Positions 12,427 through 42,292 of a stretch of 64,000 bases of DNA are shown here, one piece after another (position 1 is the first letter of the stretch; every line of letters begins with the position of its first letter). Location: positions 1,736,001 through 1,800,000 of the forward strand of contig NZ_LWLN01000001.1 in assembly GCF_001953745.1 (NCBI RefSeq), given 5' to 3'. The DNA is from Natrinema saccharevitans (lineage in GTDB: Archaea > Halobacteriota > Halobacteria > Halobacteriales > Natrialbaceae). The notes under the pieces are model-generated. The model worked only from the letters and a program-made list of their open reading frames with translations, was not told where the DNA came from and did not search any database. The translations under genes and the position numbers were made by a program.

Positions 12427-13653
12427 TCACTCCTCCTCGAGGATCGCCAGCCGCGAGTCACGCAGCAGCACCTTCTTGACGATCGAGGGGTTCTCGAGCA
12501 GGCGGTGTTTCGCGTGTGCGCCCCGGCCGCGTCCCCGGCCCTCGCGCTCGGACTGGATCACGTTGAGGAAGTTCTGCTCCTGCAGGATTTCCTGAACCCG
12601 GCGTTCCGAGAGGACGTCGAAGTCGAGCCGGCGGGCGATCTCCTTGTACTGGTTGTAGATGATCTTCGTCGGGAACTCCTTTTCCTGACTGTTCTCGGTC
12701 AGCAGGGTCAGCGAGTAGAGGATCGCCTTGGCCTGCTGGGGCGAGCCCTCGATGAGTTCGTTGAAGCGGTCGGCCTCGGTCTTTTCCTTGGCGTCCCGGA
12801 CGTGATCGGCCGTCACGCGGGTGTCGTTTCGCTTCTTGGCGATCCGGCCGGCGTTCCGGAGGATGTCGATCGCCTTGCGCGCGTCGCCGTGTTCCTGGGC
12901 CGCGAGCGCGGCGGTCAACGGGATCACGTCGTCCGAGAGGACGCCGTCGTGGAACGCGTCGCGGCGCTTCTCGAGGATCTCGACGAGTTGATTGGCGTCG
13001 TACGGCGAGAAGACGAGTTCGTCCCGCGAGAGGCTGGACTTGACGCGTTCGGAGAGGTGATCGGGGAAATCGATCTTGTTCGAGATGCCGATGATGCCGA
13101 TGCTCGAGTCCGAGATCCGGCGGTTCTCGCCGGCCCGGGAGAGTTTGCGCAGTACTTCGTCGTCCTCGAGCATGTCGATCTCGTCGAGAATGACGATCGT
13201 CACGTCGGTGCAGTGATCGACGGCCTGCCAGAGCCGCTTGTAGTAGTCGCCGGTCCCGAGCCCCCGATCGGGGACGGTGACCCCGCTCGCGTCGGGTTCG
13301 TTGACGATCTGAGCGATCGTCTTGACGATGGAGGCCTCGGTATTTTGCTCCCCGCAGTCGATGAAGGCGTACTTCACGGTGACGTCGTCGTTTTCGGCCT
13401 CGGTGATCACGCGCTGGGTGACCGACCGCGAGATGAGCGACTTGCCGGTCCCGGTCTTGCCGAAGATAAACAGGTGGTTGGGCTCGCTCCCGAAGATCGC
13501 CGGGTTCAGGGCGTCCGCAACCCGTTGCATCTGTTCGTCGCGACCGACGATCCGGTCCGGCCCGGGCAGGTGCGTGATCTCGAGCAGGCGCTCGTCGGCG
13601 AAGACGGGGTCGTCGTACCGAAAGAGCGGATCTCGATCGTCGTTGGCGGCCAT
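12427..13653 (-). CDS. Orc1/Cdc6-type replication initiator
   Basis: 408-residue AAA+ origin-binding protein. Walker A GKTGTGKS is at residues 65-72, Walker B IVILDEID at 153-160, sensor 1 around N192 (GISNK) and sensor 2 in HGDARKAID (255-263). The C-terminal ~110 residues form the winged helix that contacts origin recognition boxes. I chose the ATG at 13653 because the longer frame upstream runs through the origin. It is transcribed away from the ORB-like repeats, the usual haloarchaeal arrangement of initiator next to its own origin. Confidence 0.95.
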   Translation of the reverse strand: MAANDDRDPLFRYDDPVFADERLLEITHLPGPDRIVGRDEQMQRVADALNPAIFGSEPNHLFIFGKTGTGKSLISRSVTQRVITEAENDDVTVKYAFIDCGEQNTEASIVKTIAQIVNEPDASGVTVPDRGLGTGDYYKRLWQAVDHCTDVTIVILDEIDMLEDDEVLRKLSRAGENRRISDSSIGIIGISNKIDFPDHLSERVKSSLSRDELVFSPYDANQLVEILEKRRDAFHDGVLSDDVIPLTAALAAQEHGDARKAIDILRNAGRIAKKRNDTRVTADHVRDAKEKTEADRFNELIEGSPQQAKAILYSLTLLTENSQEKEFPTKIIYNQYKEIARRLDFDVLSERRVQEILQEQNFLNVIQSEREGRGRGRGAHAKHRLLENPSIVKKVLLRDSRLAILEEE

Positions 13654-13824
13654 TGCAGTGGCCGCCCCTTTCAACTCGACTGAAATAAACCTGTGGAGAT
13701 CGATCGCGGATGTAAACACGTCGGGTAAGCGACTCGAGCGCCAGTTTTCGGACGACTGAGCGTACGTACGGCGTACCGCCGCCCTCGCGCTTCTAACGCC
13801 GAAACCGATCGATCCGCGGAACGG

Positions 13825-13847
13825 GCACCCCCATCGCGGGTGTAAAA
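13825..13847 (-). repeat. ORB-like element 1 (diverged)
   Basis: The reverse strand reads TTTACACCCGCGATGGGGGT plus flanking bases, matching about 17 of 23 positions of the two better copies at 13994 and 14140. The G-run and the TTACA part are both kept. Confidence 0.6.
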
Positions 13848-13993
13848 CCGATGCAACAGGCCACGAAGCTGCCAGTATCGATCGATTCCGAGCGTTGTGT
13901 CGCGGACACTGCGCGTGGTCCGAATCCGAGACCGCGGTCGAAACCGAACCGCTGCACCGGTCGAACGTTCGAATCGCGACTCGCTCGAGGGGG

Positions 13994-14016
13994 CACACCC
14001 CCGTCGCGTTTGTAAC
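13994..14016 (-). repeat. ORB-like element 2
   Basis: The reverse strand carries GTTACAAACGCGACGGGGG followed by TGTG. It differs at one position from element 3 and lies in opposite orientation to it, 123 nt apart. Confidence 0.75.
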
Positions 14017-14139
14017 GGGAAACGGGTGGGGTGGCTCGAGCGGTATTGCCCGATTTGGGTCGTATGAGACGAATCGGGGACCGGTCTTTCATCCGCGGCG
14101 GAGGTGTGTTCGCGAACGAAACCCCCACGCGCAATCGCG

Positions 14140-14162
14140 GTTACAAACGCGAGGGGGGTGTG
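14140..14162 (+). repeat. ORB-like element 3
   Basis: The plus strand carries GTTACAAACGCGAGGGGGG followed by TGTG, then a CCCTC tail like the flank of element 2. It is the copy closest to the AT-rich CTAG cluster. Confidence 0.75.
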
Positions 14163-14270
14163 TCCCTCTCTCACTGAGTCCAGTCCGACGGCTGCGGAAC
14201 GGTGATCGGCGGAAACGGCCCCGTATATCGGCGCAGTCGACGAGAAGCACACAATGCTACGTAACTCCAC

Positions 14271-14369
14271 GTCTAGATACTACTACATCTAGATACTAAC
14301 TAGACCGTCTAGACTAGCTATCTAGACTAGCTAGTTCATCCAGGAATAGGTCATCCAATAGCTAGACCA
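14271..14369. repeat. CTAG cluster in AT-rich part of the origin
   Basis: Nine CTAG tetranucleotides occur in about 100 nt, several within TCTAGA or CTAGCTAG palindromes. CTAG is normally rare in haloarchaeal chromosomes. The segment is the most AT-rich part of the origin region and lies beside ORB-like element 3. Its function (DNA unwinding, protein binding or methylation site) is unknown. Confidence 0.7.
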
Positions 14370-14586
14370 GCAGTTGTCTTGTGATATCATACAACAATCG
14401 GTTGCGGCCACTCGCGAACGGACTCCTTTTTGCGGTTCCGATCACTACTCCGGCTATGAGCGCACGTCTCGCTTCCGCCGCGTCGATCGTACTCGATCTT
14501 CCCGGCGGTCTCGGCACGGACTCCCTATCGACCGATCGCCGAGGCATCGAACGATATCGACTCGCGGCCGTCCGAGCGCCGAACCG

Positions 14587-15348
14587 ATGAGTGGGGAGTC
14601 CGAACCCACCGCGGACGCGACGGCCAGAACGGTACCGGCCGTCGCCGTCGTCGACGCTCAGTCACCAGGCAACGTCGGCACGATCGCCCGCTCGATGAAG
14701 AACTTCGGCTTCGAGGAGTTGCTGTTGATCGACCCGCCCGAACTCGATCCCGACGGCGAGGCCTACGGCTACGCGGGCCACGCTCGAGAGGACGTCCTGC
14801 CCGAAGCCGAGGGGATCACCTTCGATCACCTCGCCGAGAACTACCACACGATCGGCTGTACGGCGGTGACCAACGAGGACGACCGAAGCCACACGCGGTT
14901 TCCCTACTCGACCCCTGCGGAGCTGGCCGACCGGCTGCCGACCGTCGAGGCACCGACCGCGCTCGTGTTCGGCCGCGAGCGCGTCGGGCTGACCAACCAG
15001 GAACTGGCCCGGATCGACGAGATCTGTTCGATCCCCGCGAGCGCGGACTACCCCGTCCTCAACCTCGGGCAGGCCGCGACCGTCACGCTCTACGAACTCC
15101 GGTCGCTCGCGCTCGAGGCGACGCAGTTACCGGACGTCGAACGGGTTCGTGCCCCCGAGGAGACCGTCGACCGGCTCTACGGCCAGTGGGACGACCTCCT
15201 GACCGAGATCAACCACCCCGACGAGAAACGCGACAAGACGATGCGGATGCTCAGACGGGTGTTCGGTCGTGCTGACCTGACCGAACGCGAGGCCAACACC
15301 CTGCTCGGCCTCCTCCGCCGGGCGACCGAGCGGCCGGCCGAGGACTGA
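14587..15348 (+). CDS. trmJ: tRNA 2'-O-methyltransferase, TrmJ family (SPOUT class)
   Basis: 253 residues from the ATG at 14587; the open frame extends upstream into the origin and that part lacks similarity. SPOUT motifs are clear: SPGNVGTIARSMKNFGF near the N-terminus, LVFGRERVGLTNQEL mid-protein and YPVLNLGQAATVTLYEL for the knotted SAM site. Archaeal TrmJ methylates the ribose of nucleotide 32 in tRNA. The C-terminal ~85 residues form the helical tail (PDEKRDKTMRMLRR, NTLLGLLRR) usual in the family. Confidence 0.9.
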   Translation: MSGESEPTADATARTVPAVAVVDAQSPGNVGTIARSMKNFGFEELLLIDPPELDPDGEAYGYAGHAREDVLPEAEGITFDHLAENYHTIGCTAVTNEDDRSHTRFPYSTPAELADRLPTVEAPTALVFGRERVGLTNQELARIDEICSIPASADYPVLNLGQAATVTLYELRSLALEATQLPDVERVRAPEETVDRLYGQWDDLLTEINHPDEKRDKTMRMLRRVFGRADLTEREANTLLGLLRRATERPAED

Positions 15349-40508: not shown

Positions 40509-41069
40509 TTAGCAACCACACCCACAGTCCGATTCGTCGCTGCCCGCCCCTTCGAAGAATTCCCGGACGTTCGACGAAAGCTGATAGGCTCGGCTCTCGC
40601 GTGATTCACTGGATTGCATCCCATTCGGCGCAATAGCTTGCACTAACGACTCGACAAGGAGTCCGACAGGTGCCGTCGAGTATTCCTCACCGCGGTACTG
40701 CCAGAGGCGACAATCGACATCACCCTCACACTCACAGAGGCCTCCACACGATTCGCAGGTATTTTCAATATAGTCGGGCTGGATGTCCCGGCCATTGATA
40801 CGGATCGTCGGTGACACGGCGAGTTGCGTCGCTTCAGCAGCCTCTAGCGTCGAGACGTGGATATCCCTGACAGTAATCCCGACAGCTAGCGCATCGAGAA
40901 TTGGTTCGATCCGCTCAAGCGCCGCTTCGAGTGCATCTTCAGTCCCCATACATCGGTCGCAGGATTCGTTGTCCAGATAGAGGAAATCGACGGTAACCGT
41001 CCGTCGTGTGTACTCTTCGGTTGCTGGCTGAATAATCGATACCGTCTTGCTGTCTGTGTGGTCGTCCAT
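40509..41069 (-). CDS. DUF2703-type cysteine-rich thioredoxin-fold protein
   Basis: 186 residues. The thioredoxin-like fold opens with VTVDFLYLDNESCDRC (C37, C40) in the position of a CxxC active site. Mid-protein CESCGGLCECEGDVDC adds five cysteines and the C-terminus is CGCGC, so metal or thiol chemistry is likely. A TATA-like TATAAG on the minus strand near 41097-41103 is about 30 nt before the ATG. It is divergent from an HxlR regulator with a Cys-rich tail. Confidence 0.78.
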   Translation of the reverse strand: MDDHTDSKTVSIIQPATEEYTRRTVTVDFLYLDNESCDRCMGTEDALEAALERIEPILDALAVGITVRDIHVSTLEAAEATQLAVSPTIRINGRDIQPDYIENTCESCGGLCECEGDVDCRLWQYRGEEYSTAPVGLLVESLVQAIAPNGMQSSESRESRAYQLSSNVREFFEGAGSDESDCGCGC

Positions 41070-41096
41070 CGCATTTTACTATATGGCTTGCTGGCT

Positions 41097-41178
41097 CTTA
41101 TACTACTCAGTAATTAGACATAAACGTGGTTAGCGTATCGAAACCACCTGGAGTGGGAGAGAGGCCGAACGTATATCT
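41097..41178. promoter_or_regulatory. Divergent promoters of DUF2703 and HxlR genes
   Basis: On the minus strand a GTATAAGAG box is about 30 nt from the DUF2703 start. On the plus strand GTATATCT (about 41171-41178) is about 28 nt from the HxlR ATG at 41204. Both spacings fit leaderless haloarchaeal transcripts. Control of both genes by the HxlR protein is inference. Confidence 0.5.
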
Positions 41179-41203
41179 CGCTATAGCGGCTGATACTACG
41201 GTA

Positions 41204-41614
41204 ATGAGCGAGCGCGAGCAGTGGCAGGCAAAATGGCACGGATTACAGGACATTCTCGGGCCGAAGTGGACGCTGCACATCCTTCGTCTCCTGTCAGAAG
41301 GGCCTCAGGGGTTCAACGCGATTCAACGCGAACTTGACGGCTTGACCGCACCGATGCTATCTCAGCGGCTCAAAGAGCTTCGGTGTCACGGCCTCGTCGA
41401 GCGGGTAGTCGCAGATACGACCCCTCCGACGACGACGTACTCACTGACCGAGCAGGGAACTGAAATCGCTACTCAACTTCGAGAACTGGAGTCGCTCGTC
41501 GAGTTACACGATCACGGAGACGACCCCGAAACCGACGGCTGTTCGCCCACCTCGCAGGAGTGTCGTGACGAAGCACTCACGACCGGATGCGTAACGGCTG
41601 TCGATCGATGTTGA
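41204..41614 (+). CDS. HxlR-family transcriptional regulator with Cys-rich tail
   Basis: 136 residues from the ATG at 41204; the in-frame extension to 41126 lies upstream of the TATA-like box and is excluded. The HxlR winged helix is clear: LGPKWTLHILRLLSEGPQGFNAIQREL, PMLSQRLKELRCHGLVERVV and YSLTEQG. The C-terminal ~30 residues contain four cysteines, an unusual tail that could sense metals or thiol stress. It is divergent from the DUF2703 gene, its likely target. Confidence 0.85.
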   Translation: MSEREQWQAKWHGLQDILGPKWTLHILRLLSEGPQGFNAIQRELDGLTAPMLSQRLKELRCHGLVERVVADTTPPTTTYSLTEQGTEIATQLRELESLVELHDHGDDPETDGCSPTSQECRDEALTTGCVTAVDRC

Positions 41615-42292
41615 ATCCGACGCCAGAGACGTACTTTTTCCAGCGAGAGGTACTCCTCGGCGAGGACCACGGAAAATAATACCCGGATAAACGCCGGAAC
41701 GAAAACTAGTGTCAAATAGAAAATGTACTTTGACGAATCAAAACACCCATATCACATGCATATACCGGCGCATCATGCTAGGTGAGAAAAACTTCAACTC
41801 GGAGCCACCATATTGGCATATATTGAATTATTCGTAGTAGGGTAGCCAGACACTCTCAACTGGTCTCTTCGAGCCATCGATCGTACCAAACTGTCTTCTC
41901 TATCGGTGGCAAGACCGGTATGAGACCGATCGGAACCTCCATCTCGGAAAGAACAAGTGACATCCTTCTCGCCGTAAACGGAGGGTTATCCGAGATCCCT
42001 CAGGCAGCCGGGCTACGCCCGGCGACGGCGAGGCTTCCCTACTGCAGGTAGGATAGTTGCCGGTCTACGATACGACCTGTTCTCTCGTACGAAGCATCCA
42101 ACTCTCGCGGTCGAACAGGTGTACCGATGGCTGTGTCGTACGAAAATCCTCTATTTCCGGGATGATCAGACGACTTTGGCGTCTCGAACCACTTGACCTC
42201 GAGCCGATTCACGACTTGCTTTCTGAAGGATACCGGAGTCGTACGGAGTTCGTTTTCGCCAAGGTACCCACGCTGACAGGGAGCCGAAGTCG
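41615..42292. other. AT-rich intergenic region with paired hairpins; possible mobile-element remnant
   Basis: No convincing gene. GC content is low to 41980. Two adjacent hairpins are present: GCCGGGC-TAC-GCCCGGC near 42008-42024 and TCCCTAC-TGCAG-GTAGGA near 42035-42052, joined by a GACGGCGAGGCT segment. Hairpins of this kind occur at the ends of IS200/IS605 elements, but no transposase remains here. Confidence 0.4.

Follow-up and report, generated by a model that had tools for sequence, protein, structure and literature searches.

A probable orc1/cdc6-linked chromosomal replication origin with a CTAG array in Natrinema saccharevitans

The orc1/cdc6 intergenic region and its boxes

The window (the whole 64,000-nucleotide stretch of Natrinema saccharevitans DNA that was analyzed) contains an intergenic region of 933 bp at 13654-14586 that directly adjoins an orc1/cdc6 initiator gene and is bounded on its other side by a divergently transcribed neighbor. 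A search for Rfam RNA families in this region found none. The initiator has orthologues in Natrinema and other Natrialbaceae with 90 to 100% identity, and it is one of about nine Orc homologues encoded on three contigs of the genome, which also has fragments and weak AAA+ matches. Background counts for the host genome come from pattern searches and individually retrieved stretches. The features of the locus are as follows.

12427-13653, minus strand: orc1/cdc6 initiator gene, 408 aa (TIGR02928, 414 bits, cut-off 181)
13683-13689, minus strand: TATA-like box TTTATTT of orc1, ~30-36 nt before the ATG, conserved when orthologous upstream regions are aligned
13704-13715, minus strand: promoter-proximal ORB core TTACATCCGCGA without a G-string, at a fixed position before the orc1 ATG
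13775-13797, minus strand: weak ORB-like element, 6 mismatches, with counterparts 144-145 nt upstream of the start codon in many Natrinema and other relatives
13824-13846, minus strand: third ORB, with 6 mismatches to ORB 2 here and near-consensus in many relatives
13994-14016, minus strand: ORB 1, proximal member of the inverted pair, GTTACAAACGCGACGGGGGTGTG, 22/23 identical to ORB 2
14024-14035, plus strand: arm of a G-rich inverted repeat just inside ORB 1, with a run of at least 4 at the same side in 44/49 relatives
14086-14108, plus strand: weak internal ORB, 54 bp inside ORB 2, 7 mismatches
14121-14130, minus strand: arm of the G-rich inverted repeat just inside ORB 2, with a run of at least 4 at the same side in 37/49 relatives
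14140-14162, plus strand: ORB 2, distal member of the inverted pair, GTTACAAACGCGAGGGGGGTGTG, 22/23 identical to ORB 1
14256-14400, no strand: AT-rich stretch outside the ORB pair, candidate duplex-unwinding element, 58.6% AT vs 36-39% on either side
14273-14365, no strand: array of 9 CTAG sites within 93 bp, located past ORB 2 and inside the AT-rich stretch
14587-15348, plus strand: TrmJ-type RNA methyltransferase gene, the divergent neighbor, flanking the origin on the outside (TIGR00050, 171 bits, cut-off 167)

ORB 1 and ORB 2 are 146 bp apart, with 123 bp between the boxes, and their G-strings point outward. The preliminary description of this DNA had proposed such a 23-bp pair in opposite orientation, and it is confirmed and proves stronger than claimed; the inverted repeat extends to 27 nt at 93%, and the best inverted 23-mer matches in 20 shuffles of 13654-14586 reach 15 to 18 of 23 positions, compared with the 22 observed. 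The element is not scattered over the genome; the 12-base signature TTACAAACGCGA has exactly two copies in the 3.98-Mb genome, both at the ORB pair. A genome-wide search with the 21-base pattern TTACANNCGCGANGGNGGTGT, allowing up to three mismatches, places its three best matches at the locus; the copy at 14087 is one of two 2-mismatch matches, and matches elsewhere in the genome have 2 or 3 mismatches. No box match within 7 mismatches was found upstream of the other orc genes checked in the genome.

The pair is conserved among relatives. Its spacing is 143 to 148 bp in 46 of 48 orthologous Natrialbaceae loci (146 bp in 25) and 137 bp in the other two. Across the 48 loci there is little or no variation in TTACA, CGCGA, and most of the G-string (GG.GGTGT), and the two positions separating TTACA from CGCGA are A/T and A/C. 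The G-run and C-run just inside the pair (37/49 and 44/49 relatives) are present together in 34/49. The topology of this G-rich inverted repeat is the same as at Har. hispanica oriC1, where the repeat acts as an enhancer (PMC3936714).

The two weaker copies that the preliminary description had placed nearer the initiator gene are those at 13824-13846 and 13775-13797, both on the minus strand; the former lies ~185-230 nt before the ATG in most orthologous loci. The weak internal box is better conserved in relatives, 51 to 56 bp inside the distal ORB. A further copy, the G-run-less core TTACANNCGCGA, is 62 to 63 nt upstream of the start codon in 47 of 49 orthologues (77 nt in the other two) and adjoins TTTATTT, a predicted promoter element of orc1. 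Because the core is fixed at this distance beside a TATA-like element, binding of Orc1 at the orc1 promoter is likely, and we regard the core as a candidate autoregulatory site. The boxes could in principle serve this purpose only, controlling transcription of orc1 and perhaps trmJ with no initiation at the locus. We consider this highly improbable, as the strongest boxes are 340 to 510 nt away, inverted and at constant spacing with the G-rich inverted repeat between them, an origin-type architecture, and the CTAG array is located further out.

The AT-rich stretch noted in the preliminary description is present, but it lies outside the ORB pair and is not unique, a few other 120-bp segments within the 64 kb being equally or more AT-rich. 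The 123 bp between ORB 1 and ORB 2 are 36.6% AT, similar to the surroundings. Haloarchaeal orc/cdc6-adjacent origins usually have an AT-rich region flanked by ORBs, whereas here it is outside the main pair; this is the main departure from the usual layout, and class membership is kept. Given this position, DNA opening may start within 14256-14400, the candidate unwinding element. We note that AT-rich stretches are also present near 41.7 and 45.2 kb of the window and that 40844-41778 contains four further CTAG sites in less than 1 kb; this region is possibly a foreign island.

A dedicated initiator and the relation to oriC1

Of a sample of 116 genomes of the class, about a third have an orthologue of the window Orc (at least 65% identity); these include most Natrialbaceae and a few other genera. 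The box, allowing at most one mismatch, is found in 14/14 genomes with this Orc and in 0/10 without it, and the initiator-specific subclass of box suggested in the preliminary description is therefore real. Five of the ten genomes without the Orc are Natrialbaceae, and since these five have neither component, the window Orc and its box are dispensable over evolution. The linkage of an initiator gene to its own box family is a known principle for other families (Wu et al. 2012, PMC3528665), with oriCa, oriCb, and others likewise pairing an initiator with its own box and with multiple origins per chromosome. The box family in the window is likely already among those listed for Haloterrigena, Halopiger, or Natrialba. 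Elsewhere in the genome, the orc of the 422-kb replicon (C2:253164-254306) shares 91% identity with an orc of a Har. hispanica minichromosome (G134:C1:150834), which suggests that a plasmid origin may have been exchanged between families.

The locus is distinct from the universal oriC1, which this genome carries elsewhere, near C1:3.2134-3.2138 Mb. The Orc encoded at oriC1 matches Har. hispanica cdc6A with 88% identity over 320 residues, is of a type recurring in 19/19 genomes searched, and is associated with ORBs reading CCACYCGAAACGAAGGGGTGGGGG. Membership of the oriC1-cdc6A family, which is present in all haloarchaea, entails an Orc at least 80% identical to Cdc6A; the window Orc is 43% identical to the genome's oriC1 Orc in the best stretch and has no match above about 50% among the Har. 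hispanica Orcs. The two origins are nonetheless built alike, in that Har. hispanica oriC1-cdc6A and the genome's own oriC1 also have two inverted ORBs with outward G-strings upstream of the initiator, and the G-rich inverted repeat just inside the ORBs and the CTAG cluster of oriC1-cdc6A are both found at the window origin. They differ in Orc family and box sequence, in the AT-rich CTAG part, which is between the ORBs at oriC1 but outside the distal ORB here, and in the box core, which in the window origin recurs at the orc1 promoter.

In 16 genomes a single contig carries both the window-type orc and the oriC1 orc, and in 15 of these the distance between the two genes is 0.41 to 0.50 of the contig; the exception is Natribaculum breve (0.295 of the contig), which also lacks a CTAG array at its window-type origin. 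Counted as nine lineages with eight at 0.41 or more, this arrangement has a probability of ~8e-6 under uniform placement, a statistic that is supportive only, because the lineages are not fully independent, the threshold is post hoc, and the contigs are taken as circular chromosomes. GC skew, which the preliminary description had offered as a check, shows no pattern and no switch in 14 sampled 20-kb stretches within ~350 kb either side and in the window, and is uninformative.

The region adjoins orc1/cdc6, has at least two inverted ORBs with a G-string, and carries an Orc-specific box, as is characteristic of the haloarchaeal orc/cdc6-adjacent class. We are confident, judging from sequence and its conservation, that 13654-14400 is very likely a chromosomal replication origin of this type, distinct from and roughly opposite oriC1. 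The same interpretation in the preliminary description is supported on its computable features, including the inverted ORBs, the G-rich repeat, the AT-rich stretch nearby, the box that tracks with the Orc, and the position, with conservation in orthologues.

Intact-looking haloarchaeal origins with inverted ORBs can be dormant, as illustrated by Har. hispanica oriC4 and oriC5 (PMC3528665) and by Haloferax mediterranei oriC4 (PMC4595724). The window origin could similarly be a backup, intact but normally silent and fired only when others are lost, like Hfx. mediterranei oriC4, and it is consistent with this that the five Natrialbaceae genomes manage without the window Orc and box. We think this unlikely, however, as the locus is retained by most Natrialbaceae genera at a constant box spacing, is 41 to 50% of the chromosome from oriC1 in 15/16 genomes, and carries a CTAG array otherwise seen at oriC1. 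Hfx. mediterranei oriC4, in contrast, sits in a variable chromosomal region (PMC4595724).

The CTAG array

CTAG is a normally avoided four-letter word, and its clusters have a restricted distribution in this genome. There are 14 overlapping matches to a triple-CTAG cluster, six of them at the locus and four at oriC1, and only these two of the nine orc loci have a cluster. The reversed triple pattern (GATC) gives 2,975 matches, although this control is limited since GATC is a common word in haloarchaea. When 49 relatives are taken together, the CTAG density in the 400 bp on the outer side of the distal box is 14.4/kb compared with 0.26/kb in the background (55-fold), whereas TATA, the next palindrome, is raised 5.9-fold. 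The 282 CTAG sites observed there compare with a mean of 73 and a maximum of 105 in composition-preserving shuffles. Relative to base composition, no tetramer is more enriched than CTAG (3.7-fold), which is also 1.46-fold over a trinucleotide-based expectation, with a count of 564 versus 168 for CTAC, 154 for CTAT, and 56 for CTAA. Both the position of the array and the surrounding sequence vary between species while the CTAG sites persist, suggesting that the tetranucleotide itself is under selection. Clusters at both the window-type origin and oriC1 are also present in seven other complete Natrialbaceae genomes.

Har. hispanica (G134), for which we find 6+4+1 orc genes per replicon in agreement with PMC3528665, has CTAG clusters at oriC1 and oriP, both of which are experimentally active (PMC3528665, PMC3936714). 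The presumed oriC2 of this species has no more than 3 CTAG sites in 200 bp, and the minichromosome origins presumed to be active have no more than 2; the cdc6 letters were assigned by coordinate order, which is an assumption. We therefore reject the cluster as a marker of every active origin; CTAG clusters mark some active origins, not all.

Triple-CTAG clusters also exist away from any orc gene. One (C1:3124486-3124526) is just upstream of a probable PHP-domain phosphoesterase gene ~90 kb from oriC1, and this cluster is also present in genome G141 at C1:3693047. In one relative, G135, clusters are located upstream of two more orc genes of other families (C1:3962944-3962963 and C2:205095-205119), one of which sits on a plasmid-sized contig. 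A natural separation of replicator and initiator is seen in the Natrinema relative G055, in which the oriC1 replicator (C1:1884500-1887500), with two ORBs, a CTAG array, and a GTP-binding-protein neighbor, is ~160 kb from the oriC1-type orc (C1:1724000-1728000); the cluster stays with the replicator and not with the orc gene. N. ejinorense likewise has no CTAGs upstream of its oriC1-type orc.

Clusters of CTAG upstream of haloarchaeal orc1/cdc6 genes were described by Blow et al. (2016), who proposed a role in replication for an orphan methyltransferase (PMC4752239), and the array here has the same dense non-coding CTAG upstream of orc together with a candidate methyltransferase of the conserved orphan type (PMC4752239, Fig 6D). 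Our analysis goes further in resolving the cluster to two of nine orc loci, in placing it beyond the distal ORB at the window origin, and in assigning it to the replicator rather than the orc gene, as the 160-kb separation in G055 illustrates. The candidate methyltransferase gene (C1:1663478-1664212) is the only full-length N6_N4_Mtase match in the genome, and its CTAG specificity is presumed. It is present in 50/50 and 22/22 further genomes, with or without the cluster, and is therefore non-discriminating; as all genomes examined have the enzyme, its presence is uninformative as an explanation of where the array is found.

The array is probably a target of this conserved orphan methyltransferase, with methylation modulating initiation. 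Nearly as good a case can be made that the array is no more than an AT-rich stretch that has many TpA steps and melts easily, with no part played by methylation. The array is the AT-rich part of the origin, TATA is also raised, ACTA/TAGT and TCTA/TAGA are enriched as well, and the candidate enzyme is present even in genomes that lack the array. Hfx. volcanii without the CTAG methyltransferase has no growth defect, and raised CTAG density is reported at only one origin of that species (Ouellette et al. 2018, PMC5867850). Melting alone does not readily account for CTAG being the top tetramer over composition and exceeding its trinucleotide expectation, for counts far above those of CTAC, CTAT, and CTAA, or for no other palindrome being comparably raised over background, and the clusters correlate with methyltransferase presence across a wider set (Blow et al. 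2016, PMC4752239).

Initiation at the locus and its implications

In the origin that we favor, Orc1 (12427-13653) would bind the inverted ORBs, its winged helix reading the TTACANNCGCGA half and its AAA+ domain the outward G-string, a division of box reading already established at the ORBs of archaea. A pair of Orc1 assemblies in opposite orientation, 146 bp from each other and aided by the G-rich inverted repeat, would load MCM for the origin to fire, with DNA opening probably in the adjacent AT-rich, CTAG-dense stretch. Orc1 would probably limit its own synthesis via the G-string-less core before the orc1 promoter, and methylation of the CTAG array by the conserved orphan enzyme would probably modulate initiation. 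More speculatively, and with rather low confidence, the array may be a methylation-gated switch at the two main origins, the window origin and oriC1, in which CTAGs that are hemimethylated just after replication delay re-initiation and so coordinate the opposite origins, the array doubling as an unwinding element that has moved outside the ORB pair. The arrangement is reminiscent of GATC, Dam, and SeqA at E. coli oriC, likewise an origin containing many closely packed copies of a methyltransferase-type palindrome, although GATC is subject to adenine methylation whereas CTAG methylation is cytosine m4C with a putative function in haloarchaea; we know of no SeqA-like reader for CTAG.

Origins of this kind are already known, and the CTAG array and the box core at the promoter are the parts most worth experiments. 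Because mutations could be confined to the array and leave the boxes intact, the proposed role of CTAG methylation is directly testable. The locus bears on the coordination of initiation in archaea whose chromosomes have multiple origins, for which it offers a compact test case. Its initiator and boxes form a dedicated pair, almost half the chromosome separates it from oriC1, a box core stands at the promoter of the initiator gene, and within the genome its CTAG array is shared with oriC1.
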